Below are positions 4,522 to 24,145 of a stretch of DNA of 29,009 nt, piece after piece. This DNA comes from a virus. The stretch's first letter is position 1; each line of letters starts with the position of its first letter. The notes beneath the pieces are model-generated. The model worked only from the letters and a program-made list of their open reading frames with translations, was not told where the DNA came from and searched no databases. Where the stretch lies: positions 1-29,009 of the IMG/VR virus record IMGVR_UViG_3300021139_000094; one strand, written 5' to 3'. A program made the position numbers and the translations under genes.

Positions 4522-4830
4522 ATGGCAATGCAAAAACAACGCGGTATTAAAACTGGCGAACCCTTTGAACCAAAAAATGTAGAAGACAATATGAAAAAAG
4601 GCGGTAAAGTTATGAAAAAAGAATCTAAATCAGAAACAAAGAAAGAAATGGCTGCTGATAAGAAGCAAGATATAGCTATGATTAAAAAGGCATTTAAAGA
4701 ACACGATAAGCAAGAACACAAGGGCGGCAAAGGCACCAAGATTACCCTTAAAAAGGGTGGTGTAACTGGCAAGGCTATGCGTGCTGTTGGTCGCAATATG
4801 GCTCGCGCCAATAACCAAAGAGGTCGTTAA
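4522..4830 (+). CDS. Lys-rich protein with KKGG motifs
   Basis: A 102-residue very basic protein, with AGGAG just upstream and its ATG at 4522. MKKGGKV is in the first third and LKKGGVT is near the end. Between them is a charged helix (KKEMAADKKQDIAMIKKAF) and a KEHDKQEHKGGKGTKI block that I know from other phage genomes without a function. It ends RAVGRNMARANNQRGR. It shares the short hydrophobic-KKGG element with genes at 1756, 2181 and 2537, which sets it in one group of small accessory proteins. DNA or scaffold binding is inference from charge. Confidence 0.6.
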   Translation: MAMQKQRGIKTGEPFEPKNVEDNMKKGGKVMKKESKSETKKEMAADKKQDIAMIKKAFKEHDKQEHKGGKGTKITLKKGGVTGKAMRAVGRNMARANNQRGR

Positions 4831-7119: not shown

Positions 7120-9903
7120 ATGACTTTCGTAGTTGCAGATAGAGTCCAAGAAAATGGAACTGTAAGTGTTGGTACTGGCTCAGTAACTCTGAGCGGTGCG
7201 GTAAACGGCTATCAGTCTTTTGCCTCTGGTATTGGTAACAACAATACTACGTACTACACCATTTATGATCCTGCTTCCTATGCTTGGGAAGTGGGTCTTG
7301 GCACCGTTACAACTGGACCAAATACATTAGCCCGTACAACCGTATATGCAAATAGTGCGGGTACTGCACCATCTAAGATTAGCTTTAGCACTTCAAATAC
7401 CCTAACTGTATTTGTTACTTACCCAGCTGAAACTGCAATCTACACGGGCTCATCTGCATCACTTAATTCGGTAACAACTACTAAGTCAATTAGCAGCTCA
7501 ACAAATATGGCTCCGTTTAATTACGGAACATTGAGCTATTCAGACACAGGCATATTTGCTTCTTACCAAACTAGCGTAAATAGCTACGCTCAGATGATTT
7601 TGCAGAACTCTTTAAACGGAACTGCAGCTTCTGCTGATTATATTGTTAGCTCAGATGGTGGCACAGCAACCACCAACTATGGTGACTTTGGTATTAACAG
7701 CTCCGCATATACAGGTACTGGCCCATTAAATGCTGCCAGCATGGTGTATTTGTATTCACAAAGCACTGACTTAACGATTGGTACAAATAGCTCTAACGCT
7801 ATTCACTTTACGATTAACAACCAAGCAACAGATGCTATGACTATTAATACGTCTGGCTCTATTGCAATTAACGGTCAGACTGGTTCGTTAGGTCAAGTTC
7901 TTATTTCCCAAGGCTCTAGCAATCCTCCATCATGGGGTAATGCTGGTGGTAACTTAGTTGTAACTGACTTTACTGCAACTGCTGGGCAAACTACATTTAG
8001 CGTAACTTATGTAGTTGGTACTGTATCTGTATATCGCAACGGTATTAAACTTGGGTTGGCAGACTTTACCGCAACTAACGGTACTTCTGTTGTGCTATCT
8101 ACTGGTGCTGTAGCTGGTGATTTGATTGAGATTCAGTCTTTCTCAACCCTAACTTTATATAGTGCAATTACATCTCAAGACTTTAGTGGTACAGGCTCAC
8201 AAACTGTATTTACACTTAATACCAACCCAGCTAACTCAGCATCGCTTTTAGTTGCTATTAACGGTGTTGTACAAGACCCAGCGAACTACACAATATCTGG
8301 CAATACACTAACCTTTACAACTGCTCCAGCAACTGGTACAAATAACATCTCAACCCGTACATTGGGCGTTCCAGCTACCACTGCAGTATCATCATTCTCA
8401 GCTGGTACAACAGGCTTCTCACCAACTTCAGCAGCTTCTGGTGCAGTAACTCTTAGCGGTATTTTGAACGTAGCTAATGGCGGTACAGGCTTAACCACAT
8501 TAGGCTCTGGGTACATCCCTTACGGTAACGGTACATCGGCATTTAACAGCCTGTCTACATTTAACTTTGACGGCTCAACATTATTCTCACCAAATGCTTC
8601 CCTATCTGGTAATTTAACTTTCAGTGGTACTGGGTCAAAAATCCTTGGTGACTTTACCAATACTACTTTAGCTAATCGTACAGTTATCCAAACATCAACC
8701 ACTAACGGTGCTACTGGTGTTTATGTAGTTCCTAATGGCACAAGTACCGCAGCTTCTATTCAAGCATTAAACGCTGCTACCCCTACTAATGCATCTAAGA
8801 TTTTAATTGCAACTAACGGATCAACAGACGTTCAGTTGGTATCAGGTATTAATGGATCAGGCACTTACTTACCACTGACATTTTGGAATGGTGGTGCTGA
8901 ACAAATGCGTCTTACTACTGGTGGTTTATTGGGTATTGGCACTGCTAGCCCATCTGCAACTTTAACTGTTGGTGGTACAGGTATTGCTAATGCTACTTGG
9001 ACTTCTTCTACTCGTCCTGGATCTCCTGTGGCTGGACAACAAGGCTACAACACAACAATTTCAGATTTAGAGTTTTGGAATGGTTCTGCATGGACTCGTG
9101 TACTTAACTTAAATACACCATCTACTTATGCAGTCACTTATTTAGTTGTTGCTGCTGGTGGCTCTGGTGGAACTAACGGAACAGGTTCTGGTACTCCAGG
9201 TGGTGGCGGAGCTGGTGGATATTATTCTGGTACAGCCACAGTATCTTCGGGTACAACATATACTGCATCTATTGGTGCTGGTGGTGCTCAAGTTACTACA
9301 CAAAATGGGAATGGGTTTCAAGGTAGTAATTCATCTTTAATTGGCGGTGCTATTTCTTACACAGCTATTGGTGGTGGATATGGAGCTGGTGCTGGTGGCA
9401 ACGCTGGTGGTAATGGTGGATCAGGTGGTGGCGGCAATAATGGTACAGGTGGTTCAGGTACAACAGGTCAAGGAAATGCTGGAGGTGCTGCATCTGGTTC
9501 GGGTGGTGGTGGAGCTGGTTCTGCTGGGCAATCAGGATCTCCTTCAGGTAATGGTGGTTCTGGATTGCAGTGGGTAGATAATATTTATTACGCTGGCGGT
9601 GGTGGAGGTGGTGGTCCAACTAGTTCCAATTCAAATGGTGGTATTGGTGGCGGTGGAGCTGGTGGTTGGACAGGCAGTTCACAAGGTACAAGCACTCCTG
9701 GTAATGCTGGAGCACCAAACACAGGTGGTGGCGGTGGAGCTGGTGCTTATCTTCCTTCTGGGCCTGGTGGTTCTGGTATTGTTGCTATCGCTTATATTTC
9801 TGATGCTCCTCGTGGACAAGGCGGTCAAGTAAGTTCGTACACCACTGGTGGGGTTACATACCAAATTCATTACTTTACATCTAGCGGTACTTATATAGGT
9901 TAA
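7120..9903 (+). CDS. Large tail fibre with polyglycine-rich tip
   Basis: A 927-residue fibre with AAGGAG upstream. Order: an N-terminal attachment module (about 1-110, with YYTIYDPASYAWEVGLGTV); two beta modules at nt 7957-8370 (DFTATAGQTTFSVTY and FSGTGSQTVFTLNTNP types); a stalk with the shared GGTGL module; an S74-fibre-like QMRLTTGGLLGIGTASPS; then from about nt 9140 a very Gly-rich domain with runs up to seven Gly, ending in a beta-rich VTYQIHYFTSSGTYIG. Gly-rich tips of this kind in other phages (for example the S16 gp38 adhesin) pack as polyglycine helices and carry variable receptor-binding loops. Receptor binding is therefore likely; the receptor is unknown. Confidence 0.8.
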   Translation: MTFVVADRVQENGTVSVGTGSVTLSGAVNGYQSFASGIGNNNTTYYTIYDPASYAWEVGLGTVTTGPNTLARTTVYANSAGTAPSKISFSTSNTLTVFVTYPAETAIYTGSSASLNSVTTTKSISSSTNMAPFNYGTLSYSDTGIFASYQTSVNSYAQMILQNSLNGTAASADYIVSSDGGTATTNYGDFGINSSAYTGTGPLNAASMVYLYSQSTDLTIGTNSSNAIHFTINNQATDAMTINTSGSIAINGQTGSLGQVLISQGSSNPPSWGNAGGNLVVTDFTATAGQTTFSVTYVVGTVSVYRNGIKLGLADFTATNGTSVVLSTGAVAGDLIEIQSFSTLTLYSAITSQDFSGTGSQTVFTLNTNPANSASLLVAINGVVQDPANYTISGNTLTFTTAPATGTNNISTRTLGVPATTAVSSFSAGTTGFSPTSAASGAVTLSGILNVANGGTGLTTLGSGYIPYGNGTSAFNSLSTFNFDGSTLFSPNASLSGNLTFSGTGSKILGDFTNTTLANRTVIQTSTTNGATGVYVVPNGTSTAASIQALNAATPTNASKILIATNGSTDVQLVSGINGSGTYLPLTFWNGGAEQMRLTTGGLLGIGTASPSATLTVGGTGIANATWTSSTRPGSPVAGQQGYNTTISDLEFWNGSAWTRVLNLNTPSTYAVTYLVVAAGGSGGTNGTGSGTPGGGGAGGYYSGTATVSSGTTYTASIGAGGAQVTTQNGNGFQGSNSSLIGGAISYTAIGGGYGAGAGGNAGGNGGSGGGGNNGTGGSGTTGQGNAGGAASGSGGGGAGSAGQSGSPSGNGGSGLQWVDNIYYAGGGGGGGPTSSNSNGGIGGGGAGGWTGSSQGTSTPGNAGAPNTGGGGGAGAYLPSGPGGSGIVAIAYISDAPRGQGGQVSSYTTGGVTYQIHYFTSSGTYIG
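8395..8544 (+). repeat. Fibre stalk module, copy 1
   Basis: Encodes [20 protein letters not shown] through GGTGLTTLGSGYIPYGNGT to SAF. It is homologous at protein level to 10414-10629, 11497-11631 and 23492-23623. It is the most diverged of the GYIP-containing copies at the DNA level. Confidence 0.7.
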
Positions 9904-9916
9904 TGGAGAAAATTAA

Positions 9917-10288
9917 ATGAGTCATTTTGCAAAAGTAGTTGACGGTAAGGTTACACAAGTGATTGTGGCTGAACCTGAGTTTTTTCAAACATTCGTAGAT
10001 TCAAGTCCTGGCACTTGGCTACAAACTTCATACAACACCCGTGGTGGTGTTCATTATGGTCAAGACGGAAAGCCAGATGGCGGTGAAGCATTGCGTGGTA
10101 ACTACGCTGGTATTGGTTTTACATACGACCAAGCCAATGATGTTTTTTATCCACCACAGCCGTTTGCATCTTGGGTATTAAATAAAACCAATTGGACTTG
10201 GGAAGCACCCGTTGCATATCCAACAGACGGAAAAGCATACAGTTGGGATGAAGCAACCAAATCTTGGGTAGAAATTAAGGCTAAATAA
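9917..10288 (+). CDS. Fibre-associated small protein, possible chaperone
   Basis: A 123-residue protein starting [20 protein letters not shown]. The middle has the pattern [38 protein letters not shown] and [19 protein letters not shown], ending in W-rich [14 protein letters not shown] know this pattern from many marine and freshwater phages, including T4-like cyanophages, where it lies near fibre genes and is unassigned. Its place between two fibre genes, with TAATG coupling to the second, suggests a fibre chaperone or tip accessory. Not an enzyme by any motif I see. Confidence 0.65.
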
Positions 10289-11136
10289 TGGCAACGACAA
10301 TCGCATCAACAGACGTAGGCGGAACAGGTCTATCAACCGTAGGAACAAACGGTCAGGTTCTTACGTCTAATGGTACGACCCTATCTTGGCAAACACCATC
10401 TGCTGGTACTTCATTTAGTGCTGGTACAACAGGTTTTACTCCTAATACTGCAACAACAGGAACAGTAACACTTGCTGGTACTCTAAACGTATCTAATGGC
10501 GGTACTGGATTAACCTCCCTCACGACTGGATATATTCCTTTTGGGTCAGGTACAAGTGCTTTTGGAAACTCAGCTAATTTATTTTGGGACAACACCAATG
10601 GTCGTTTAGGTATTGGTACAAGCAGCCCTGCGCAAAAATTAGATGTTGCAGGAAATACTTCTTCATATAACTTTAATATTTCAGCTAACACTGGAACAGT
10701 TGGCATAGGTTCAAACAGTTATGTGCAGTTTGCAAATGGTTCTGGAACACCAGCAAATACAATGATTTTTGTTTCCAATTCTGCGGAACGAATGCGTATT
10801 GATTCTAGCGGAAATGTGATATTAACTGCAGCTGGTAACTTAAATCTAAGTAACTTAAATACTTATTCAGCAAATTCAAGCGGGTATCAAAAACTACCAA
10901 GTGGAATCATTATTCAATGGGGGACAAATAATAATACAGCTGGCTCTTGGACTACATATACATTCCCAATAGCATTTCCTAATAACTGTTATAACGTAAC
11001 TGCATCACAACGATGCGGATATTATGGTGGAATTGTTTCGGGATGCGTACAAAATGGCTCACCTAGTACAACAGGATTTAACTATGCACAAAATGGCGGT
11101 GCAGACACTTTTGCATGGATTGCGATAGGAAATTAA
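10288..11136 (+). CDS. Tail fibre with gp53-like C-terminal domain
   Basis: A 282-residue fibre. After a short N-terminus come the shared stalk module (nt 10414-10629), an S74-fibre-like [15 protein letters not shown], and a C-terminal domain from about residue 200: [34 protein letters not shown], ending [11 protein letters not shown]. That ending matches the gp53-like C-terminal domain of tail fibres (PF21882 from memory), a receptor-binding head. It lacks the N-terminal attachment domain of the 7120 fibre, so it may attach to another fibre or act as an alternative distal segment. A tail fibre assembly-like gene follows 1 base later. Confidence 0.75.
10414..10629 (+). repeat. Fibre stalk module, copy 2
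   Basis: Encodes [11 protein letters not shown] through [19 protein letters not shown] and [18 protein letters not shown]. It shares a perfect 20-base block (10525-10544) with 11527-11546 in the next fibre, and both sides are highly similar. Confidence 0.8.
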
Positions 11137-11137
11137 T

Positions 11138-11431
11138 ATGTTTTATTACTCAAAATCAACTAAAGGGTTTTATACAGAAGACATTCATGGCGATAATATG
11201 CCGTCTGATGTTGTAGAAATTACTGTCGAACAACACCAAAATCTTATGGCTGGGCAAGCTATTGGCAAAGAAATTACCCCCGATAAAAATGGTAATCCAG
11301 TTTTAACTGATCCAGTAGTAACGCAAGATGTATTAGATTTTAAAGAATCGCAAAAATCAGCTATGGAAAAATTAACTGCACTTGGGTTAACACCAGATGA
11401 AATTGAAGCAGTATTGGGAATTAAATCATGA
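11138..11431 (+). CDS. Tail fibre assembly-like protein
   Basis: A 97-residue protein starting MFYYSKSTKGFYTEDIHGD with a PSDVVEITVEQHQNLMAG element. This Y-rich start followed by a 'that-residue-must-be-considered' D/H-rich strand and a helix with LTPDEIEAVLG fits small phage tail fibre assembly chaperones. The middle PDKNGNPVLTDP is typical of the same group. It is placed directly after the gp53-type fibre and overlaps the next fibre start as ATGA, so it probably helps fold or trimerise one or both fibres. Confidence 0.7.
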   Translation: MFYYSKSTKGFYTEDIHGDNMPSDVVEITVEQHQNLMAGQAIGKEITPDKNGNPVLTDPVVTQDVLDFKESQKSAMEKLTALGLTPDEIEAVLGIKS

Positions 11432-12603
11432 CACAAGCCAATAACGTAGCTATTGAAAGCTCACAGATAAACTCTTCAGGTGTATTGACCGTCCCAGGCG
11501 GTGGTACTGGCTTGTCTACACTTACTACTGGATATATTCCTTTTGGTGCTGGCACAAGTGCATTTGGAAGCTCATCTAACTTGTTTTGGGATAACACAAA
11601 CGCTCGTTTAGGTATTGGTACTTCTAGCCCTAGCGTTCCTTTGCAAACTCTTAATAGCTCTGGTGAAATTGGAGTTATAAGTTCTAGTAATGCTGGTACA
11701 AACTATGCTCTTTTAAGAACTTACAATACTAATAACTCATCAAATTTCAATGATTATGGAACAAGAAGTGATGGTAGTGCTATTATTTTTTCTAGAGCTG
11801 CCCCTACTTCTGGAAACAGAACTTTTACATTTAATTACTCTCCAATAGGAGATATATTTTCTACCGATACTAGCGGAAATTTTTCAGTTAGCACTGGAAA
11901 TTTATTTATTAATGATAGCAGTAATGTTGCAAGCAATCCAAAACTTTATGTATTAGCTGGTAATACCACTGGCAAAGCTGGTGCAATTATTCGTAATTCA
12001 AGCGGATCTGCTGGTCCAGCTTACATGGGATTTCAAGGATATGACTGGGTACAAGGTGCTATTTGGCATGATCGTTCAAGTGGTTATGCTTTATCTTTGG
12101 CAACGAACCCAAACACAACAGACTTAACCATAGGTGGTTGTGTAGCAAGAGTAAATATTACCAATGCTGGATATGTAACAATGCCATATCAGCCATGTTT
12201 TCAAGTATATAGAACTACTTCTGTGAATAGTGGGAATATAGTTGTTTTTGATACAGTATGGTCAAATGTTGGCAGTAATTATAACACTTCAAATGGTAGA
12301 TTTACAGCTCCAACAAATGGAATTTATGAGCTAAGTTGGCAACAAATTGGAAATTCAGTTCCAGATGTTTATAGAATGAATTTATATATAAATGGTTCTC
12401 AATATTCTTTAAATGGTGTTAGTGGAATTCAATCTAGGGCTGTAGTGCCATCTGGTGGTCAATATTCATTTGCAGCATCGTTGGTATATGTTTATATGGG
12501 TGCTGGGGATTATGCACAAATATATTTTAATTCTGATGGCGGAAACGCTTTATATGGTGATAACTCTGGTTATTGCAGATTTTCTGGAAGATTAATGAAT
12601 TAA
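11428..12603 (+). CDS. Tail fibre with C1q-like head
   Basis: A 391-residue fibre. It opens with a short N-terminus and the stalk module (nt 11497-11631), then a variable beta shaft. From about residue 256 it resembles a C1q/TNF-like jelly roll: FQVYRTTSVNSGNIVVFDTV, NYNTSNGRFTAPTNGIYELS, LYINGSQYSLNG, and the end DNSGYCRFSGRLMN. C1q-like domains form trimers and bind ligands, and occur at the ends of phage fibres. Compared with the preceding fibre it has the same stalk and a different head. The start overlaps the assembly gene by 4 bases. Confidence 0.75.
   Translation: MTQANNVAIESSQINSSGVLTVPGGGTGLSTLTTGYIPFGAGTSAFGSSSNLFWDNTNARLGIGTSSPSVPLQTLNSSGEIGVISSSNAGTNYALLRTYNTNNSSNFNDYGTRSDGSAIIFSRAAPTSGNRTFTFNYSPIGDIFSTDTSGNFSVSTGNLFINDSSNVASNPKLYVLAGNTTGKAGAIIRNSSGSAGPAYMGFQGYDWVQGAIWHDRSSGYALSLATNPNTTDLTIGGCVARVNITNAGYVTMPYQPCFQVYRTTSVNSGNIVVFDTVWSNVGSNYNTSNGRFTAPTNGIYELSWQQIGNSVPDVYRMNLYINGSQYSLNGVSGIQSRAVVPSGGQYSFAASLVYVYMGAGDYAQIYFNSDGGNALYGDNSGYCRFSGRLMN
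11497..11631 (+). repeat. Fibre stalk module, copy 3
   Basis: Encodes [20 protein letters not shown] and [18 protein letters not shown]. Bases 11527-11546 are identical to 10525-10544, so the two adjacent fibre genes share enough DNA for recombination. Confidence 0.8.
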
Positions 12604-14065: not shown

Positions 14066-14884
14066 ATGGCATCTTCATACACAACTAGTTTAAAGATACA
14101 ACAGATAGGTAACGGCGAACAGTCTGGTGTATGGGGTACAACTACCAATACTAACTGGAACTTAATTGAACAGGCAGTAGCTGGGGTAGTCACAATTACA
14201 ATGGCAAATGCCAATTACACCCTATCAAACCTAAACGGAGTGCTAGACGAAGCCCGTAATATGGTAATAGTAGTTGGCGGTACTAACTCTGGCGTGTATC
14301 AAGTCGTTGCCCCCCTAGTTAACAAGTACTACGTTGTATCAAACCAAACTTCTGGCGGATATGCAATCCAAATAGGTGGTGCAACGGGTTCTATCGTATC
14401 TATACCAAACGGTGTTACAGCTCAGGTTTATTGTGACGGCACAAACTTCTTCTCAGCTTTAACTGGTACTGCTGGTAGTTTTAACGTCAACGGAACTTTG
14501 ACTGCTTCTGGTGTTGCTGACACGGGCTCTTTATCTGCTCAGTCTTTAGCAGTATCTGGTAACTCCACATTTACTGGTACTACAACACATACAGGAACTG
14601 CGACCTTTAACGGTACTGCAAACCACAATAGCACAACGACTGTACCTACTGTAGCTACAAACGACAACTCAACTAATGCTGCTTCTACAGCCCTTGTAAC
14701 TAATAAGATTGCTGCTATTACCAGCATACCAAACGCTAATGCTATTACCAACTCTGGTGGTTGGAGCGTCACTCCATCAGGAACAAAACTTTACTTCAAC
14801 TATAACGGTACTAACGTGGGGTCTTTAGATTCAGGTGGTAACTTCACTTGTACCGGCAACGTAACCGCATACGGAAGCCCATAA
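14066..14884 (+). CDS. Tail fibre-like protein lacking an S74 chaperone
   Basis: A 272-residue protein. The N-terminal module (SSYTTSLKIQQIGNGEQSGV, then WGTTTNTNWNLIEQAVAG) is a common fibre attachment module. The middle is a Ser/Thr/Gly shaft. Near the end are VPTVATNDNSTNAASTALV and SGGNFTCTGNVTAYGSP. In related fibres, as I recall, a GNVTAY-type segment leads into an S74 intramolecular chaperone (DERLK-type start), but here a TAA follows at once and overlaps the radical SAM start. It may be a naturally short fibre or one whose chaperone was lost or replaced. Confidence 0.7.
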   Translation: MASSYTTSLKIQQIGNGEQSGVWGTTTNTNWNLIEQAVAGVVTITMANANYTLSNLNGVLDEARNMVIVVGGTNSGVYQVVAPLVNKYYVVSNQTSGGYAIQIGGATGSIVSIPNGVTAQVYCDGTNFFSALTGTAGSFNVNGTLTASGVADTGSLSAQSLAVSGNSTFTGTTTHTGTATFNGTANHNSTTTVPTVATNDNSTNAASTALVTNKIAAITSIPNANAITNSGGWSVTPSGTKLYFNYNGTNVGSLDSGGNFTCTGNVTAYGSP

Positions 14885-16314
14885 TGCTATTTGAAATACA
14901 CGCAGAAAAGAATGCGCTAGATAAAAAAGTATTTCTCTACGACAACCAAACAAACATCCTTAAAGACTTGGATGGGAACGTCTTTAAATTTTTAGACCAG
15001 CAAGAAAGCCTAGACTACCCACCGGCTACTGTGTTTAGCAAAGACGAGCCTTTAAAAAAGTCCAAACATATCCAGCTGCTTAAAATCCAGCTGGGGCTTG
15101 GGTGCAACTACACCTGTGACTACTGCTCCCAAAAGTTTGTTGAGCGTGCTGAGTCTACGACCCATAAAGATGTAGAAACGTTTCTACAAAAGCTAGATAC
15201 CCTAGAGTTCTCTGAAAAAGTTGGGTTGAAGGTGGAGTTTTGGGGTGGCGAGCCTTTGGTTTACTGGAAAACCCTTAAGCCTTTGGCAGAAGCACTGCGG
15301 GAAAGATTCCCATATGCTAAGTTTTCTATGATTACTAACGGTTCTATTTTGACTGAGGAAGTCATTGACTGGCTTATGATGATGGACTTTGCAGTGTCTA
15401 TTAGCCATGATGGTCCCGGTCAGTCTGTGCGTGGTCCAGACCCATTTGATGACCCAGAAAAGAAAGAACTAATATTAGGGTTTTACCGGATGATGAGCCG
15501 CCTAAAAAAAGGCATCAGCTTTAACTCCATGCTGTCCAAAAATAACCAAAGCCGTAAAGCAATCCATGAATGGTTTATGAACTTAACTGGTAACCCTGAG
15601 ATTGTGCTGGGCGAAGGCACACTGGTTGATGCTTATGATGAAGATGGCATTACTAACTCACTTCTAACCCACCAAGACCACTTTAACTTTAGACGCACTA
15701 CATTTAAAGAAATCTTAGCAAACCACGGCTATATTGGGTTCCAAGCAATTATTGACAAGATTGACAACTTTACCCGTGCTGTCCTATCCCAAACCCCAGC
15801 TAAATATCTAGGGCAAAAATGTGGCATGGATGATGAGCATGTGCTGGCTGTTGACCTACATGGAAATGTGATTACTTGCCAAAACGTATCTGCTGCAGAA
15901 ACAGGTAAAAACGGACAACCCCATTTATCAGGAAACCTAGATGATTACGATAACGTATCCATCACCACATCTACTCACTGGAGTAAACGCTCTGAGTGCC
16001 CATCCTGTCCAGTATTGCATCTCTGTAAAGGAGCCTGCATGTTTCTCGATAACAAGTTCTGGGAAGTCTCCTGCGCCAACGCATACTCTGACAATGTCAC
16101 TTTGTTTGCCCTATCCATCCACAACATGACGGGTTATATCCCTTATATGATTAAAGGTGAGGGTTTACCATTAGAACGGCAAGATATATTTGGTACTATT
16201 TACCAACACGAAGAGAGGCCAGCTAAACGCGTTATACCTATTAAAGTAGTTAGCGACGTAGTTGGTAAAATTGATAACGTTGAAGTTTATGGAAAGGCTA
16301 GGGTAGAAGCATGA
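14884..16314 (+). CDS. Radical SAM/SPASM enzyme, peptide-maturase type
   Basis: A 476-residue enzyme. I chose the ATG at 14884 (TAATG overlap); an extension to 14848 lies inside the fibre gene. Cys74, Cys78 and Cys81 form the CxxxCxxC cluster site with Tyr80, and GGEP at 121-124 is the SAM-contacting motif. The C-terminal SPASM domain is complete: Cys313-x13-Gly327-x4-Cys332, then Cys372-x2-Cys375-x5-Cys381-x3-Cys385 and Cys397, enough for two auxiliary iron-sulfur clusters. This is the layout of sulfatase maturases and RiPP cross-linking enzymes, which act on Cys, Ser or nearby side chains of peptides. I see no separate leader-recognition (PqqD-like) domain. The stop overlaps the Cys-rich gene as ATGA, making its product the most likely substrate (inference). 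Confidence 0.9.
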   Translation: MLFEIHAEKNALDKKVFLYDNQTNILKDLDGNVFKFLDQQESLDYPPATVFSKDEPLKKSKHIQLLKIQLGLGCNYTCDYCSQKFVERAESTTHKDVETFLQKLDTLEFSEKVGLKVEFWGGEPLVYWKTLKPLAEALRERFPYAKFSMITNGSILTEEVIDWLMMMDFAVSISHDGPGQSVRGPDPFDDPEKKELILGFYRMMSRLKKGISFNSMLSKNNQSRKAIHEWFMNLTGNPEIVLGEGTLVDAYDEDGITNSLLTHQDHFNFRRTTFKEILANHGYIGFQAIIDKIDNFTRAVLSQTPAKYLGQKCGMDDEHVLAVDLHGNVITCQNVSAAETGKNGQPHLSGNLDDYDNVSITTSTHWSKRSECPSCPVLHLCKGACMFLDNKFWEVSCANAYSDNVTLFALSIHNMTGYIPYMIKGEGLPLERQDIFGTIYQHEERPAKRVIPIKVVSDVVGKIDNVEVYGKARVEA

Positions 16315-17192
16315 CACTACCATCTTCAGGTCCGATAGCAGTAAGCAATATTAATACCGAGATAGGACAATCTCCTACCTTTACGGATAACCTGTCATTT
16401 TTAAATGGCTTGCTTTTATCACCAGCTAGTTCGCCTAATATGAGTGCGTTCTACAGCAAAGCGTATTTCCAAAACACTACGCAAGGTAACTGCTCAAACG
16501 GCAACTGTACCAACAACTGTAACTGTGGAAACATTCAGTGTAATAACTGTTTTATCTCTGGCTACACCAACTGCGTAAACTGCCAAAGCCAAGCGTACTT
16601 ACAAAATAACTGTAACTGTGGCCCTGCTGGGTATAACTGTGTAACATCACAAACTGCATCTTATAACTGCAACTGCGCATGCAACTGTTCCAAAATTATT
16701 TGTGCCAAGCTTTATGAACAAGGCAATATGGACCCAAATGTATGGGCAGCTGACCAGAAGTATGGCAAATGGTTACGTCAAAATGATAGACGTGTATACC
16801 GAGGCTATATACGTTGGGCTCGTACTGTAACTGCTTGGATGGATGGCAAAGGTCCAGATTGTTTCCTATGGATAAGAAAGGAAGATCGTGCACAAGCTCA
16901 AAAAGAAGCAATTAACAAAATGGCGCTACGGATTGGTATTCCATGGTCTGAACATATGGCTTTCCTCATGGGAGCCCGTCCTCATGACAACTTGCGCGGT
17001 CGCGTACTTATGACTATTGGTGTACCTATTAGCCGTTTGATTGACCATATCCCACATCGTCGTGGACACCGCATTTTGACTTTATGGACTATGTGGGCTT
17101 TGTTCTGGATGAGCCATTGGACCGCATCTGCTATCGTTGCTATTAATAAAAAATTTAGTTTTGAAGGAGTGAAAAAATGGATGAACATATAA
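16311..17192 (+). CDS. Asn-Cys repeat virion-type protein with TM
   Basis: A 293-residue protein. Residues 1-52 (LPSSGPIAVSNINTEIGQ and MSAFYSKAYF) resemble an N-terminal module of marine phage tail proteins. Residues 61-131 hold 16 Cys, 13 of them directly preceded by Asn. After it comes CSKIICAKLYEQG and a W/R-rich domain (AADQKYGKWLRQNDRRVYRG, WMDGKGPDCFLWIRK, IPWSEHMAFLMG) that I recall from other phage virion proteins. About residues 254-279 form a membrane helix (LTLWTMWALFWMSHWTASAI). One more Cys is at 184. Start and end overlap neighbours. A surface or membrane-contacting protein, and a likely substrate for the adjacent modifying enzymes, is inferred; disulfides or metal binding are alternatives. 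Confidence 0.7.
   Translation: MTLPSSGPIAVSNINTEIGQSPTFTDNLSFLNGLLLSPASSPNMSAFYSKAYFQNTTQGNCSNGNCTNNCNCGNIQCNNCFISGYTNCVNCQSQAYLQNNCNCGPAGYNCVTSQTASYNCNCACNCSKIICAKLYEQGNMDPNVWAADQKYGKWLRQNDRRVYRGYIRWARTVTAWMDGKGPDCFLWIRKEDRAQAQKEAINKMALRIGIPWSEHMAFLMGARPHDNLRGRVLMTIGVPISRLIDHIPHRRGHRILTLWTMWALFWMSHWTASAIVAINKKFSFEGVKKWMNI
16491..16703 (+). repeat. Asn-Cys repeat region
   Basis: Codes for residues 61-131 of the gene at 16311. Cys at 61, 66, 70, 72, 77, 80, 88, 91, 101, 103, 110, 120, 122, 124, 126 and 131. All but those at 77, 124 and 131 follow Asn. Gaps are irregular (2 to 10), so it is a dipeptide bias and not a fixed-period tandem repeat. Confidence 0.9.
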
Positions 17193-17587
17193 TCCAACAA
17201 ATCCCCCCAGTAGAGGAAATTATCCCCGACGCACTAAAGGAAAAGGTTTCTCCTTATAAAAATATTAAGCCCGAAGAAGTGGCTGCGTATAGAGATTTTG
17301 TCGTCCATTACTTTGATAACCAGATGAACCGTGACATTTTGATGTTGCCAGAAACTGACAAAGTGCGGATGTTCCAGATGCTGCAAGACTATGCTGATGT
17401 GCTAGAGAAGATTTTTCACCCCGGCATTCCTATCCTTGAGCATATTTTAGGTAAACGCTGGGCAGCGGCAAATGCAAACCCACACGCAGGTATTAACTAC
17501 GACTACGACTGCGAGATTATTCGTCAATATGATGCTTGGAAAGCAGTACAAGAAACAGCTAAAGTAGATGACGAACCTCAAAGTTAA
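17177..17587 (+). CDS. Unknown acidic protein in the modification block
   Basis: A 136-residue protein with GAAGGAG 7 bases upstream, overlapping the previous gene by 16 bases and the next by 20. It is mostly helical: PEEVAAYRDFVVHYFDNQM, ETDKVRMFQMLQDYADVLEK, HPGIPILEHILGKRWAAANA and YDCEIIRQYDAWKAVQETA. It contains no Cys cluster, cofactor motif, signal peptide or membrane segment that I can see. I do not recognise the family. Its fixed place between the Cys-rich protein and three oxygenases suggests an accessory or substrate-presenting partner, or a fibre chaperone. Confidence 0.55.
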   Translation: MDEHIIQQIPPVEEIIPDALKEKVSPYKNIKPEEVAAYRDFVVHYFDNQMNRDILMLPETDKVRMFQMLQDYADVLEKIFHPGIPILEHILGKRWAAANANPHAGINYDYDCEIIRQYDAWKAVQETAKVDDEPQS

Positions 17588-18227
17588 CCCTATATGGGGT
17601 AGCCCTGCTTGGGAAATGTTTCTCCCATTTAATGAAGGCTTTAATGAGGACTTGCTAAAAGAGCTGCATTCTATTGGCTCGGACATTGCTTTTGGTTTAG
17701 ATGACAGACCACAAGATAGCCTTTGGGATTACGACACTCCTTGCTTAAGCCTACTAAAAAAGACAATCGTAGCCCATGTAACTGCGGTGTTGCGTTCTGC
17801 TATTCCAGAAGCTAAAGAGCTTAATATGTCGGTGGAGTCTCATATGTGCTGGCCTAACGTACGGGAACCGGGAGAAACTTTAGAAGTTCATGCGCATACT
17901 GACTCTACTATTGCTTGTACTTACTTTGTTAAAACCCCTGAGAATTGCGGTGACTTAGTATTGTTTGAAAGCCGCGATGCAATTAACTGGGAAAAAGGAT
18001 GCCTTAACCCAGATGCCAGTATGAAGGAAAGACGCATTAAACCAACGGCAAACAAGCTAGTATTTTTTCCATCTTACATTTTGCATACAGTAGAAGAAAA
18101 TAAGTCTGATGATTTGAGGGTAACTATTACTTGCGACCTAAAGAAAGTTATTGATAAAACTGCGCCTAACGCCATCGTGCTTAAAAGTTGGGCAGACAAA
18201 ATGGTGAAGCTATGTTCAGAAAACTAA
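17568..18227 (+). CDS. Fe(II)/2-oxoglutarate oxygenase 1
   Basis: A 219-residue double-stranded beta-helix protein. The iron ligands are visible as His110-x-Asp112 (EVHAHTDSTIACTYFVKTP) and His173 (KLVFFPSYILHTVEEN); Arg184 is placed to bind 2-oxoglutarate. The HxH start, the YFVKTPENCGDL strand and the FFPSYxxHxV strand match putative 2OG-Fe(II) oxygenases of the PF13759 type. Such enzymes hydroxylate proteins or small molecules using O2. The substrate is unknown. It is translated by overlap with the unknown gene before it and with the next oxygenase (16 bases), so they were probably kept as a unit. Confidence 0.8.
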   Translation: MTNLKVNPIWGSPAWEMFLPFNEGFNEDLLKELHSIGSDIAFGLDDRPQDSLWDYDTPCLSLLKKTIVAHVTAVLRSAIPEAKELNMSVESHMCWPNVREPGETLEVHAHTDSTIACTYFVKTPENCGDLVLFESRDAINWEKGCLNPDASMKERRIKPTANKLVFFPSYILHTVEENKSDDLRVTITCDLKKVIDKTAPNAIVLKSWADKMVKLCSEN

Positions 18228-18727
18228 AGCATTTTTTTCACAATTTAGAATACACGCAAGGTCAAGAGAAGATTAACTACAGTGACCTGATTAGATATTA
18301 TGAAACCAATCTTACTCAAGGCGGGGTTTTGAACATATTACCGCTGCGCTACCGCCCAGATTTTCAGTTATCCCTTATGCAAATAGAAGGTGCGGTTCCT
18401 CCGCATACTGACAGTGAAGTTAAGACGTCAATTAACTTTTATATAGACCCAGGTGTTTATATGACTACGTTTTACAGCCCACGACCCGGAGCAAAAACTA
18501 CGCAGGTTGCAGGTCAAACCAACGGTTATGTCTATGAAATGCCAGACCTTTTAAATCGTGGTACGTTTATTGCTAACGCTGGTGATGGCTGGGTTCTTAA
18601 TGTTTCAGCAGTACATGGGGTTCAGCCAGTATCAAAAGTTACTAGACGGACTGCGCTTTGTCTAGCCACAGATAAACATGATTTTGATGCTGTAATTGAA
18701 ATGCTAACTGAGACAGGAAACGTCTAA
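18212..18727 (+). CDS. Fe(II)/2-oxoglutarate oxygenase 2 (small)
   Basis: A 171-residue protein. The ATG at 18212 is chosen; an earlier TTG at 18188 would add eight residues inside the neighbour. His65-x-Asp67 (GAVPPHTDSEVKTSINFYID) and His135 (DGWVLNVSAVHGVQPV) are the likely iron ligands, with Arg145 or Arg146 the 2-oxoglutarate partner. The strands around them fit the beta-helix core; the protein is near the minimum size for the family and has an N-terminal helical segment. I cannot name a subfamily. It ends in TAATG with the third oxygenase. Confidence 0.7.
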   Translation: MFRKLKHFFHNLEYTQGQEKINYSDLIRYYETNLTQGGVLNILPLRYRPDFQLSLMQIEGAVPPHTDSEVKTSINFYIDPGVYMTTFYSPRPGAKTTQVAGQTNGYVYEMPDLLNRGTFIANAGDGWVLNVSAVHGVQPVSKVTRRTALCLATDKHDFDAVIEMLTETGNV

Positions 18728-19518
18728 TGTTTTACGAAGAACTCGATTGCTTAAAGATTGACCATGGTCGTCTTTTGTTTAATTTGCATAACCACGTATT
18801 TCCTTTGGGCAAACAGATCATTCAAGGAGAAGAATATGAAACACCGGCTTATCATGGCTTTGGCGGCTGGTCTATTACTTCCCGTACTGGTCATTGGAGA
18901 GATGGTTGGGATTTTTTCCAGAACGATGAAGGCAAAGCAATGGAAGTTTATTTTCCTAAAAATGACAATAACTTCAAAGCCCTCAAGTTTTTTGACATTG
19001 CTCACTCGATGGAACACAAGAATCCGACAGAGGCATGTGTTGGAGAGTTTGCGTATATCGTTAACCAAATGGAAGATTTAGGGTTATACCCCCGCCGTGT
19101 GCGTGTAACTTGCTTAAAAGCTGGTGCTAAGTCTTTGGTTCATAAAGATGCGGACGATGGAGAGTATATGGCACGTATCCATATCCCCTTGATTACAAAC
19201 AAAAAATGTGTTTTCATATGTGATGGCGTTAACCTCCATATGGAAGTTGGTAAGGTATATGCAGTATGGGTTAATACTTGGCATCAGATTCGTAATGACT
19301 CTAATGAAGACCGCTACCACCTTATATGCGATTTTTACGATACCAAAAAGATTACCAAGACCTTTAAGTACGAAGGTGATATTACCCAGCTAGAAGACCA
19401 TGCAAAATGGATGCGCCAAAAGATTGATGAAGCGGTAATAGAACCAGAATTGCTAGCTAAGTTTGAAGAAGTACGGCAGTCTTTTATTACAAAACCCAAA
19501 CATGAAAAAAATATTTAA
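18727..19518 (+). CDS. Aspartyl/asparaginyl beta-hydroxylase-like protein
   Basis: A 263-residue protein. The core His139-x-Asp141 (SLVHKDADDGEYMARIHIPL), then GKVYAVWVNTWHQIRND with His186, and Arg196 in DRYHLICDFYD match the aspartyl/asparaginyl beta-hydroxylase family (PF05118 type) including its RIHIPL strand. In animals that family hydroxylates Asn or Asp within Cys-rich EGF-like domains; whether this one uses a protein is unknown. It starts in a TAATG overlap, and a holin candidate begins within its last codons. Placed after the Asn-Cys protein and two other oxygenases, it fits a modification cassette. Confidence 0.8.
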   Translation: MFYEELDCLKIDHGRLLFNLHNHVFPLGKQIIQGEEYETPAYHGFGGWSITSRTGHWRDGWDFFQNDEGKAMEVYFPKNDNNFKALKFFDIAHSMEHKNPTEACVGEFAYIVNQMEDLGLYPRRVRVTCLKAGAKSLVHKDADDGEYMARIHIPLITNKKCVFICDGVNLHMEVGKVYAVWVNTWHQIRNDSNEDRYHLICDFYDTKKITKTFKYEGDITQLEDHAKWMRQKIDEAVIEPELLAKFEEVRQSFITKPKHEKNI

Positions 19519-20753: not shown

Positions 20754-23162
20754 ATGCCATTACAAAAACTACAATTTAGACCCGGATTAAACCGTGAAGG
20801 TACTGACTACTCAAACGAGGGCGGTTGGTATGATGGCGATAAAATTCGCTTTCGTTCTGGTTTTCCTGAGAAGATTGGTGGTTGGACGCAAGTATCTTCC
20901 AATACATATAACGGAGTATGTCGTTCTATTTGGGTTTGGGCTGATGGCGATACAGGTACTGGTAACACCTATATTGGGGTAGGTACTAACACTAAGTACT
21001 ACATTTACTACGGTGGTGTTTATAACGACATCACTCCTATTATTCAGACAGACACTCTTACAAACCCATTTACAACAACCAGTGGTTCTAAAATTGTAAC
21101 TGTAACTGATGGCACTTATAACCCAGCACAGGGCGACTTTGTTTATTTTTCTGGCGGTAGTGCAGTTGGTGGATTAACTATTTCTGGCGACTACCAAGTT
21201 ACTTCTATTTTATCTGGTACTCAATACACAATTACAGCTTCTGCAAATGCTTCTTCTTCCGCTACAGGCGGCGGTACAGTAACTGCTCAATATGAATATC
21301 CATCTGGACTAAACGTCTACGCTATTGGTACTGGCTGGGGTACAGGTCCTTGGGGTGGTGTAACAATACCAACTTCAGTTACATTAGGCTCTAACCCTTT
21401 TTCTACAACTAATGGAAGCGCTACAGTTCAAGTTACTCAGACAGCACATGGTCTAGCTACAGGTGCTTGGGTTTCATTCTCAGGTGCTACAACAGTTGCT
21501 GGTATACCCGCTGTTGTTTTAAATACAGATTACCAAGTAACAGTTACAGGCGTAAACACCTACACAATTAGTGTAGCTACAATTAATCCAACATTAACAG
21601 CAAATGCAACTACTACGGGTGGTGGAAGTGCGGTTGTTGCCCTAGACCAGTCTGGTTCTTATGGTTGGGGTACTAGCTACTCTGCTGGTATTGGTCAGCA
21701 GTTGCGCCTTTGGTCTAATGATAACTTTGGTTCTGACCTTGTCATTGCACCTCGTGGTGGTCCTGTTTTCTATTGGCAGGACTCTAACGGCATTTATACA
21801 CGCGCCCAGTATTTAAACTCACTTGCCAACACAACTACGGAATACACTGATTCTGGTACAAGCTTTACTTCTGGTGTTACCACTATTACAGTAAGCGCGG
21901 CTCTTGCGGGTAATTTATACCCATATATGTATATCACTGGCACGGGTATTCCAGCAAATACTTACGTGTCTCCTACTTATATAACTGGGGCTACTACAGT
22001 ACCTATTAACAATACCACCACAGCTAATAGCGCTGGTAACTACACATACTCTTACGCTGGCGCTTACGTGCCTAACAAGACATATCAAGTTATTACTTCA
22101 GCTATACAAGAATTTGTTATTTGCTTTGGTTCCAACCCTTACTCACCGGGTAACCCCAATACTTCATTTAACCCTATGTTGGTTCGCTGGTCTGACCAAG
22201 CAAACCCATATCAATGGATTCCGCAGCTTACAAATCAGTCAGGTGAATACACATTAACTAATGGCTCTTATATTATGGGTGCACGTGCAACCCGTCAGGA
22301 GATATTGGTTTGGACTGATTCTTGTCTTTACACCATGCAGTATTTAGGTGCTCCTTATGTTTGGGGCTTCCAAGTATTGATGGATAACATTTCTGTGATG
22401 TCTCCTGATTCTATGATTACGGTTAATAACGTGACTTACTGGATGGGGCGTGATCGCTTCTACCAATACTCAGGTCGTGTTGAAGTTCTCCCATGCTCAC
22501 TGCGCCAATACATTTTTGATGATATTAACCAAGACCAAGCCTATCAAGTATTTGCAGGTGCTAATGAAGCATTTAATGAAGTTTGGTGGTTTTATGTTAG
22601 CCAGTCCAGTAATAACACTGCCGTAGACAAATACATTATCTATAACTATTTAGACCGTGTTTGGTACTACGGCACTATGGCTCGTTCTGCTTGGAATCAG
22701 ACTGGCATTCAACCCTACCCTATTGCTGCCGACTATAATGGCAGATTGTTGTATCACGAAAATGGTACTGATGACCAATCAACTTCGAGTGTTAAACCTA
22801 TAGATGCGTACGTACAAAGTTCTGATTTTGATATTGGCGATGGGCATAACTTCGGTTTTGTCTGGAGAATACTTCCTGACGTTAATTTCAACGGGTCTAC
22901 TGCTAATCAGCCCTATGTTACGATGACCGTTAAGCCTAGGGAAAACTCTGGTACTCCATATGGTATTGCAGATAATCCTCAGGTAACTAGCGCACAAAAC
23001 TACACGAATACACCCGAATACACAGTTCAGCAATTTACTGGGCAGGTTTATACCCGCCTACGTGGTCGTCAAATGGCATTTAGGATTGAGTCTAATGATA
23101 TTGGAGTTGCTTGGCAGTTAGGCAGCCCACGTATTGATATTCGCCCTGACGGACGTAGATAA
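20754..23162 (+). CDS. Large tail protein, nozzle/stabilisation type
   Basis: An 802-residue beta-rich protein. The N-terminus (KLQFRPGLNREGTDYSNEGG, GDKIRFRSGFPEKIGGW) and later PMLVRWSDQANPYQWIPQ and MSPDSMITVNNVTYWMGRD are family hallmarks I recall from short-tailed environmental phages, where it is annotated as a structural or stabilisation protein. Repeated W/Y strands suggest a beta-propeller-like tail nozzle, as in P22 gp10 or T7 gp12. Residues about 103-180 and 213-297 are two related inserts (NPFTTTSGSK- and NPFSTTNGSA-type starts). Exact role is inferred. It couples to the collar fibre gene. Confidence 0.65.
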   Translation: MPLQKLQFRPGLNREGTDYSNEGGWYDGDKIRFRSGFPEKIGGWTQVSSNTYNGVCRSIWVWADGDTGTGNTYIGVGTNTKYYIYYGGVYNDITPIIQTDTLTNPFTTTSGSKIVTVTDGTYNPAQGDFVYFSGGSAVGGLTISGDYQVTSILSGTQYTITASANASSSATGGGTVTAQYEYPSGLNVYAIGTGWGTGPWGGVTIPTSVTLGSNPFSTTNGSATVQVTQTAHGLATGAWVSFSGATTVAGIPAVVLNTDYQVTVTGVNTYTISVATINPTLTANATTTGGGSAVVALDQSGSYGWGTSYSAGIGQQLRLWSNDNFGSDLVIAPRGGPVFYWQDSNGIYTRAQYLNSLANTTTEYTDSGTSFTSGVTTITVSAALAGNLYPYMYITGTGIPANTYVSPTYITGATTVPINNTTTANSAGNYTYSYAGAYVPNKTYQVITSAIQEFVICFGSNPYSPGNPNTSFNPMLVRWSDQANPYQWIPQLTNQSGEYTLTNGSYIMGARATRQEILVWTDSCLYTMQYLGAPYVWGFQVLMDNISVMSPDSMITVNNVTYWMGRDRFYQYSGRVEVLPCSLRQYIFDDINQDQAYQVFAGANEAFNEVWWFYVSQSSNNTAVDKYIIYNYLDRVWYYGTMARSAWNQTGIQPYPIAADYNGRLLYHENGTDDQSTSSVKPIDAYVQSSDFDIGDGHNFGFVWRILPDVNFNGSTANQPYVTMTVKPRENSGTPYGIADNPQVTSAQNYTNTPEYTVQQFTGQVYTRLRGRQMAFRIESNDIGVAWQLGSPRIDIRPDGRR

Positions 23163-24145
23163 TGGCAACACCCAATATCCAAAACTTTAATGGGGTAACT
23201 GTACCTACAAAAGCCCCTAACTTACCGATTGCACCTGTAGATTACACACAGCAGTATCAAGACCAGCTAAACAATGCATTGCGGTTGTATTTCAACCAAC
23301 TAGATAACTTTTCGCAATCTAGTAATGCACCTGCTTATGGAACAACTGCTCAAAGACCAGTAAGTAATGCGGCTACAAATAACATTCTTCCTGTTGGATA
23401 CCCATACTTTGATACAACTCTTGGATACCCTGTGTATTGGAGCGGTTCTGCTTGGGTTAATGCAGTTCCAGCAACAGCCTCTGTATCTTCGTTTAGTGCG
23501 GGTACAACTGGGTTAACACCTAGTTCTGCAACTACCGGAGCAGTTACATTAGCGGGTACTCTAGCAATAGCAAATGGTGGTACTGGTGCAACTACGGCAG
23601 CTGGGGCTGCAGCTAACTTAGGTATTTCTACCGTTTTAACGGGTGTTATTCAGATGTGGCCCACTACAAGTGCGCCAAGTGGCTACTTACTATGCAACGG
23701 GTCTTCCTATTCCACGACTACATATGCCACCCTTTTTGCAGTAGTTGGCTACACTTTTGGTGGTTCTGGAGGTTCGTTTAATGTCCCAAACTATGTCAAT
23801 CGTATGCCATACGGTACGACTATTGGCGCTACTGGCGGTAGTGCAGATGCTATTGTTGTAAGCCATACCCATACTGCATCAGTTTCAGACCCCGGACACC
23901 AGCACTTATTTGGAGCAGACGATCAAATTGCTCCTCAAGGTGGATATAACGTACAAAGCGGATTTTCTTACGATGCTACATCTACTACTTCAGGTGGTGG
24001 TGTTAACTTGTATACAAAACGCACAGATAATACTAATAACCCCCAAACAACAGGTATCTCTGTTTCTAATAGTACAACTGGTGTAAGCCCTACTGGGGCT
24101 AATTTGCCCCCCTATCTTGGTATTAATTTTATTATCAAAACCTGA
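23162..24145 (+). CDS. Tail fibre with phage tail collar domain
   Basis: A 327-residue protein. The N-terminal helix region is YTQQYQDQLNNALRLYFNQL; a shared stalk module (nt 23492-23623) follows; then comes a tail collar domain (PF07484 type): GVIQMWPTTSAPSGYLLCNG, YATLFAVVGYTFGGSGGSFN, VPNYVNRMPYG, and VVSHTHTASVSDPGHQH. The end NLPPYLGINFIIKT is the usual ending of these short-fibre proteins. The collar domain supports trimeric fibre folding and binding to the host surface. It lies after the nozzle gene, apart from the fibre block at 7120-14884, so it may be a base or side fibre. Confidence 0.8.
   Translation: MATPNIQNFNGVTVPTKAPNLPIAPVDYTQQYQDQLNNALRLYFNQLDNFSQSSNAPAYGTTAQRPVSNAATNNILPVGYPYFDTTLGYPVYWSGSAWVNAVPATASVSSFSAGTTGLTPSSATTGAVTLAGTLAIANGGTGATTAAGAAANLGISTVLTGVIQMWPTTSAPSGYLLCNGSSYSTTTYATLFAVVGYTFGGSGGSFNVPNYVNRMPYGTTIGATGGSADAIVVSHTHTASVSDPGHQHLFGADDQIAPQGGYNVQSGFSYDATSTTSGGGVNLYTKRTDNTNNPQTTGISVSNSTTGVSPTGANLPPYLGINFIIKT
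23492..23623 (+). repeat. Fibre stalk module, copy 4
   Basis: Encodes FSAGTTGLTPSSATTGAVTL, then GTLAIANGGTGATTAAGAAA and NLG. It shares the first half of the module with 8395 and 10414 but has a distinct second half (no GYIP segment). Confidence 0.65.

Follow-up and report, generated by a model that had tools for sequence, protein, structure and literature searches.

Three consecutive genes of a virus record of 29,009 bases, referred to here as the window, code for proteins resembling 2-oxoglutarate (2OG) oxygenases, and the question arises of what a phage may oxidise with three such enzymes encoded side by side. A preliminary description of the locus had reported the tandem trio, with the same boundaries and product lengths (219, 171 and 263 aa) as found here. 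It had passed over two neighbouring genes, one for a cysteine-rich protein, CysR, which does occur in the same cassette, and one for a radical SAM enzyme (rSAM), as constant in the set as the second and third oxygenases. The cassette probably modifies part of the virus tail.

The three oxygenases

All window features described below lie on the plus strand. The first gene of the trio, oxA (17568..18227; 219 aa), an optional member of the set, codes for a 2OG-Fe(II) oxygenase matching phrog_81, PF13759 (E 1.4e-17; 64.3 bits, cut-off 27) and TIGR02466 (66.8 bits, cut-off 62.5), as expected for a 2OG-FeII_Oxy_5 protein. By its score and its iron- and 2OG-binding residues, the third, oxC (18727..19518; 263 aa), is a 2OG-Fe(II) oxygenase of the aspartyl/asparaginyl beta-hydroxylase family PF05118 (Asp_Arg_Hydrox; E 1.6e-11; 44.7 bits, cut-off 22.6), the family to which it had already been ascribed.

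The second gene, oxB (18212..18727), encodes a compact protein, 171 aa long from its ATG, whose sequence barely matches any named family: PF03171 alone was detected, with an E of 0.0083, under the family cut-off. Its AlphaFold model (pLDDT 90.9, pTM 0.87) was compared with known structures, and the top matches were mostly 2OG oxygenases, with Z between 8.6 and 10.5. They include proline 3-hydroxylase (Z 10.5, rmsd 3.2, 137 residues aligned), YcfD (Z 10.1, rmsd 3.4, 144 aligned), a nucleoside-antibiotic hydroxylase (Z 10.1) and human AspH (Z 9.0, rmsd 3.4, 129 aligned); in a search by Foldseek alone, mixed cupin-type folds ranked first. Structure prediction had been proposed earlier as a check on the fold, and according to the model oxB is a member of the 2OG-Fe(II) oxygenase superfamily, with a double-stranded beta-helix, the HxD...H motif and a distal Arg.

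A common HxD...H(R) layout had been attributed to all three proteins. It is strict in oxB, where H65, D67, H135 and R146 are invariant in 55/55 distinct sequences, and in oxC, where the same holds for H139, D141, H186 and R196 (55/55), but oxA shows the different pattern HxHx(D/E/G): H108, H110, H173 and R184 are found in 49/49 distinct sequences, while position D112 varies, with D in 33 of them, E in 11, G in 4 and a gap in the remaining sequence. Since different families are matched, recent duplication among the trio is ruled out, in agreement with the preliminary description. None of the three matches an AlkB-type nucleic-acid oxygenase family in Pfam, PHROGs or NCBIfam; AlkB homologues are found among the many 2OG enzymes aligning with the oxB model, and the fold alone is no argument against an AlkB type.

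Among proteins of solved structure, oxC comes closest in sequence to L-proline cis-4-hydroxylase (E 0.0015) and to a beta-hydroxylase annotated for nucleoside-antibiotic biosynthesis (E 0.0043), and no AspH chain is present among the four solved-structure sequence matches at E up to 0.1. AspH itself is not known to possess the Asp ligand that oxC retains. A function of oxC as an Asn/Asp hydroxylase of Cys-rich domains, suggested earlier, is plausible, and because of its PF05118 membership the beta-carbons of Asn/Asp may be taken as a first guess for its target, in spite of the proline hydroxylase being its closest solved relative.

No tblastn match to oxC was found in 50,697 phage records, and relatives of oxB were detected there only in Roseobacter phages CRP-738 and CRP-3; in CRP-738, whose record contains no match to the window rSAM, the oxB relative is located near primase and helicase genes. 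A viral scan seeded with oxB returned only 3 loci, at 33% identity, all lacking the cassette.

A conserved cassette of six genes

The trio closes a cassette in which the genes follow the order rSAM, CysR, g136, oxA, oxB, oxC. Reading frames overlap by 20 nt between g136 and oxA and by 16 nt between oxA and oxB, and the TAA of oxB shares 1 nt with the ATG of oxC. The small gene g136 (17177..17587; 136 aa) has no family match in Pfam, PHROGs or NCBIfam, and its product is possibly a partner of CysR.

The rSAM gene (14884..16314) encodes a radical SAM/SPASM enzyme of 476 aa, counted from the ATG at 14884; in the ORF list its start is placed at an upstream TTG, 14848. The protein matches PF04055 (2.2e-11, over the cut-off) and phrog_1802 (4.7e-61). 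SPASM domains are characterised by a pattern of seven cysteines, CX9-15GX4C...CX2CX5CX3C...C, which, along with the CX3CX2C motif of the SAM cluster, is present in 60/60 distinct cassette rSAMs, that of the window included. Among the NCBIfam matches listed (25 of 58), the top relatives include TIGR03906, a model for quinohemoprotein amine dehydrogenase maturation (2.2e-20), PapB (5.7e-20) and CcpM (7.1e-19), all maturases of Cys-containing peptides and proteins; no PoyD-type epimerase model is found among the same listed matches. The scores are under the family cut-offs (72.8 of 453 bits for TIGR03906, 71.8 of 340 for PapB, 68 of 500 for CcpM) and, as no specific model is reached, the type of bond formed by the enzyme is a guess. 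The related gene of Achromobacter phage JWF is named for an anaerobic sulfatase-type enzyme, and formylglycine chemistry was hence considered for rSAM as well.

Conservation of the cassette was evaluated by viral scans. A scan seeded with oxC identified 33 loci in which the order of genes recurs, and one seeded with CysR produced 111 relatives, the best 80 of which, near-identical contigs included, are the basis of the following counts. The rSAM gene is visible in 79 of the 80 loci, the exception, L016, being cut by the contig start, and it lies upstream in 59/59 loci having more than 3 kb upstream of CysR. Similarly, oxB, oxC and g136 are found downstream in 57/57 loci with more than 6 kb on that side, and an oxA-type gene in 49 of these 57; the coupling of the oxygenases, claimed from the window alone, is thus borne out, and one common pathway for the three is the natural reading. 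Variants of the order include absence of oxA, exchange of oxA and g136, doubling of oxB or oxA, so that tandem paralogues of either are present in other phages, and insertion of extra genes.

Contigs carrying the cassette range from 4 kb to 357 kb and their flanking genes vary between groups, which indicates that the linkage is not confined to one phage species; the recurrence of the gene order in many other phage contigs is not due to chance. A scan of genome contigs with oxC yielded 53 pattern matches and one confirmed locus, a 7.2-kb contig from a Bacteroidetes MAG bearing the same cassette. An origin of the cassette from host chromosomes was rejected, this sole confirmed locus being probably phage.

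The oxygenases could also act on host lipids, sugars or small metabolites and be merely kept beside tail genes, with a role of oxC similar to that of LpxO, a lipid hydroxylase, and with fatty acids as the substrates of the desaturase-like gene products. Such an explanation gains from the presence of genes of the fatty-acid desaturase family within the cassette in 21 of the 57 loci (best 80 of 111), from the free-proline and antibiotic-pathway hydroxylases closest to oxC among solved structures, and from PF05118 itself, which includes lipid hydroxylases too. Most loci, the window among them, have no desaturase-like gene, however, and wherever enough sequence is available among the best 80 of the 111 relatives, oxB and oxC invariably accompany CysR and a SPASM-type rSAM, so that we consider this alternative improbable, if slightly less so than the two further alternatives discussed below.

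The Asn-Cys stretch of CysR and the NCNCxCNC motif

Action of the enzymes on CysR, the reading preferred here, directs attention to the composition of this protein. CysR (16311..17192; 293 aa) is made up of a short N-terminal part, an Asn/Cys-rich middle and a helical C-terminal domain, and has no match in Pfam, PHROGs or NCBIfam. The Asn/Cys-rich stretch (16488..16688, aa 60-126) contains, within 67 residues, 15 Cys, 18 Asn and 13 Asn-Cys pairs, and ends with YNCNCACNC followed by S. The number of pairs compares with a mean of 4.0 in shuffled sequences, none of 20000 shuffles being as high. In 60 distinct CysR proteins (those of at least 280 aa, that of the window included) Asn accounts for 24% of the residues of the region and precedes 78% of its Cys; several Asn-Cys pairs and many Cys are invariant.

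In the predicted structure of CysR the C-terminal domain (approximately residues 130-282) is mostly at pLDDT 70-84, while the N-terminal and middle parts, with pLDDT below 50, have no confident structure. Comparison of the fold pointed to four phage proteins (E up to 0.001), uncharacterised or unnamed, one of them named for a DUF4815 domain; the N-terminal part has only insignificant matches among phage proteins, the best at E 0.4. With a possible C-terminal membrane helix in mind, hydropathy was measured as a 19-residue mean over the last 70 residues; it reaches 1.2 or more in 27/60 proteins, and 1.15 in that of the window. The sole protein found with the C-terminal domain of CysR and no Asn-Cys stretch belongs to Synechococcus phage SynMITS9220M01, where the domain follows a Gly-rich and poly-Pro tract and the gene is located beside a fibre gene; no such rSAM is present in this 190-kb record.

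The terminal part of the stretch was used to define a motif, NCNCxCNC, and IMG/VR was scanned for DNA encoding it. At least 119 stretches were detected, of which 80 loci were examined. When the ORF bearing the motif is at least 80 aa long, a PF04055 gene is present in 35/39 records, as opposed to 3/41 otherwise (Fisher p 1.5e-14), and two of these three exceptions may be true cases, namely L084, with a tail ORF of 67 aa, and L057, at a contig end. Within the same 80 loci of at least 119, rSAM and motif ORF (60 aa or more) are on the same strand in 31/31 cases, with a median gap of 943 nt, and in 28 of the 39 ORFs no more than 11 residues separate the motif from the C-terminus. Tail or tail-fibre PHROGs match 8/10 of the motif proteins examined; of the other two, L063 is without a match and the matches of L109 are to families of unknown function. 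The SPASM pattern is found in 29/30 rSAMs from these loci.

Oxygenases are scarce in the simpler records combining rSAM and NCNC motif: PF13640 is present in 4 of 32, in 3 of them within about 2 kb of an rSAM gene, and PF05118 in 1 of 32. Weak 2OG-like genes are located between tail gene and rSAM in L063 (PF13759, 1.2e-5) and L116 (0.057), and the genes in this position in L067 and L074 have no match. The oxygenases are thus an addition to the wider set and not one of its fixed parts. When 91 rSAMs were placed in a FastTree phylogeny, the 65 cassette enzymes formed one clade, with support 0.88, adjoining the rSAMs of L111, L098 and L118, whose NC-rich proteins have no long C-terminal domain and which are not accompanied by oxC; this topology suggests that the cassette grew out of a simpler system of rSAM and NC tail. 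A shared partner gene located between the NCNC tail gene and rSAM was likewise sought and rejected, one family covering 9 of 30 intervening ORFs, a number that includes overlapping and spurious frames; two members of this family have no significant Pfam match, and no relatives of the JWF gene product PJWF_00029 occur among the intervening ORFs.

It could be argued that the Asn/Cys stretch binds a metal or an Fe-S cluster, in the manner of a metallothionein, and that the enzymes modify few sites or another protein. Cys-X-Cys spacing does resemble that of metal-binding Cys clusters, and many Cys of CysR are invariant; nevertheless, a bias placing Asn before 78% of the Cys is unexpected from metal binding alone, and the link to rSAM is common to many different NCNC-motif proteins. 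We regard this explanation as unlikely.

Proposed pathway and relation to known systems

The reading preferred here, to which we give a better than even chance as a whole, is that the enzymes mature the Asn-Cys stretch of CysR, which would be a tail protein of the phage. The cassette would constitute a post-translational modification pathway encoded among the tail genes of a tailed phage, in which rSAM and the 2OG oxygenases act on CysR, its middle forming an Asn-Cys ladder. CysR is the likely target of the enzymes. In the ladder, rSAM would connect the sulphur atoms of Cys with neighbouring carbons; SPASM maturases of Cys-rich peptides and proteins suggest by analogy that such bonds may be thioethers, an assignment that we make only tentatively. 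Residues of the stretch would be hydroxylated by oxB, oxC and, where present, oxA; that Asn/Asp are the residues concerned is a conjecture, somewhat firmer than the preceding one. The product of g136 may aid folding or delivery.

The outcome would be a covalently stapled and oxidised tip or segment of the tail structure. That the modified product is a part of the virion seems fairly probable; the genomic place of the cassette, the relatives with the same C-terminal domain and the NCNC-tail proteins hint at a position of CysR itself in the particle. The role of CysR as substrate, the kind of bonds, the sequence of steps, the location within the particle and the advantage to the phage are all inferred.

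A third explanation, no likelier than metal binding, sees in CysR the precursor of a modified peptide released against competitors or host, a RiPP proper whose C-terminal recognition domain is cut off: the enzyme set resembles a RiPP cluster and in phage JWF the NCNC motif directly precedes a self-processing Hint domain, but comparison of the six genes of the window cassette with Pfam, PHROGs and NCBIfam revealed no leader-removal protease, exporter or other transporter (g136 having no match), and in simpler systems the motif is mostly at the end of fibre-like proteins.

Maturation of a tail protein, as preferred here, would have broader implications. Many phage 2OG oxygenases and radical SAM enzymes are without known targets, and here a clear candidate substrate adjoins them; moreover, NCNCxCNC is a simple motif tracking rSAM across many phages. 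It is conceivable, at slightly less than an even chance, that a RiPP-like maturation of tail-fibre parts is widespread among tailed phages, with SPASM rSAMs stapling Asn-Cys ladders which, in the lineage of the window, unrelated oxygenases oxidise further, the oxidising battery comprising 2OG oxygenases, joined in some phages by enzymes of the desaturase type. This would amount to a previously unrecognised chemistry of virion proteins. Covalently stapled and oxidised tail parts would have consequences for adsorption to the host and for the stability of the virion, the enzymes would make up a new peptide-modifying set, including a compact oxygenase of 171 aa, and the pathway could bring new chemistry to phage particles.

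Several known systems share elements with the cassette. QhpD (TIGR03906), PapB and CcpM maturases are among the top NCBIfam matches of rSAM, which has the SPASM Cys pattern and a Cys-rich protein encoded nearby; QhpD and PapB form thioether bonds, and the substrate of QhpD is a protein subunit, not a short peptide. Differently from these systems, the window rSAM scores far under the cut-offs, its candidate substrate is encoded by a phage and features Asn-Cys pairs, and the set includes several oxygenases. RiPP clusters combining a radical SAM enzyme with a 2OG-type hydroxylase exist, as in the case of polytheonamide, whose substrate is Asn-rich. The likeness extends to a ribosomal substrate, to the presence of both enzyme types in one set and to the abundance of Asn; a putative precursor, CysR, lies beside rSAM in all 59 informative loci (best 80 of 111). 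In contrast to such clusters, the cassette is located in a phage tail-gene region, with a candidate substrate of 293 aa bearing a large C-terminal domain and with three unrelated oxygenases.

Among phages, Achromobacter phage JWF is the nearest parallel: its rSAM, PJWF_00030, is 43.5% identical to that of the window, and two genes upstream the fibre-like protein PJWF_00028 carries NCNCDCNCNCSC directly before the Hint domain. Unlike in the window, no oxygenase is found among the annotated products within 6 kb of PJWF_00030. Asparaginyl beta-hydroxylases and many 2OG-FeII oxygenases have been reported in cyanophages (PMC3037559), and a core aspartyl/asparaginyl beta-hydroxylase in pelagimyophages (PMC7029224); these enzyme families are shared with the window, whereas the parts of those reports consulted do not describe them beside genes for an rSAM and a Cys-rich protein. 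Likewise, the consulted portions of papers mentioning phage 2OG oxygenases, Asp/Asn hydroxylases or radical SAM genes (PMC7824862, PMC3037559, PMC5332604, PMC7029224) make no mention of the cassette, and no description of an oxygenase, an rSAM and an Asn-Cys-rich phage protein together was found in the literature searched, which comprised few subscription papers or preprints. The parts belong to known enzyme families, and only their combination with an Asn-Cys-rich phage protein is apparently new; the system is probably of the kind in which radical SAM and oxygenase enzymes mature a ribosomal product, here a phage tail protein.

Genes between NCNC-tail proteins and radical SAM enzymes

In the loci collected by the viral scans (L plus a number, with coordinates counted within each locus), fibre-like proteins with a NCNCxCNC motif (NCNC tail) accompany, as a rule, a radical SAM gene (rSAM, PF04055). 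Genes with HxD...H or HxH...H patterns are found between the NCNC-tail protein and its rSAM in L063 (4003-5549), L067 (7005-7637) and L116 (7720-8346). Their PF13759 scores are weak at best; therefore Pfam may under-report the 2OG partners of such loci, which are perhaps commoner than it indicates. The same position is occupied, in nine loci, by members of one protein family, roughly 270-410 aa in length (L053 3433-4260, with relatives in L063, L067, L081, L086, L099, L102, L107 and L116), a possible partner protein; the two members searched had no significant Pfam match.

Other cysteine-motif proteins

In Achromobacter phage JWF, the fibre-like protein PJWF_00028 (L040 3793-5244) carries a Hint self-processing domain directly after NCNCDCNCNCSC, which suggests that the modified end may undergo cleavage or ligation; the rSAM is located two genes after it. 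Small proteins made up of CQxCQG-type Cys repeats, terminating in NCNCDCNCNCSDDS, are encoded in L056 (2386-2784) and L094 (214-600), and each of these records contains two PF04055 genes. A 2086-aa protein of L109 (3899-10156; phrog_358, a family of unknown function) contains TNCNCACNCACDCG internally. No PF04055 gene was found within this 10.9-kb fragment, which is either a cut contig or an exception to the rule.

Fibre-like and structural proteins

The C-terminal domain of CysR, the Asn/Cys-rich proposed substrate, is also carried by SynMITS9220M01_028 of a Synechococcus phage (L038 4627-6519), where it is preceded not by an Asn-Cys stretch but by a Gly-rich tract and a long poly-Pro run; a fibre gene adjoins.

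Inspection of translations by eye revealed a module around 'SAGTTGFTP...GGTGLT' common to several fibre-like genes of the window (7120-9903, 10288-11136, 11428-12603 and 23162-24145). Small, very Lys-rich proteins are encoded in a row in the structural region (1245-2797 and 4522-4830), several with KKGG motifs and one also His-rich.

Additional and altered oxygenase-type genes

Fatty-acid-desaturase-family genes (PF00487), one or two per rSAM-CysR-oxygenase cassette, lie close to rSAM, CysR and the PF05118 oxygenase gene oxC in L011 (9293-9988), L012 (8124-8825), L013 (6767-7477) and L027 (6133-7573). Genes of this type are present in 21 of the 57 loci with more than 6 kb downstream of CysR.

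The PF13759 oxygenase oxA of L027, L029 and L030 has Gly (HGHGG) at the position where an Asp or Glu is presumed to act as ligand. A replacement of this kind is known in 2OG halogenases, but it could also be a family trait.
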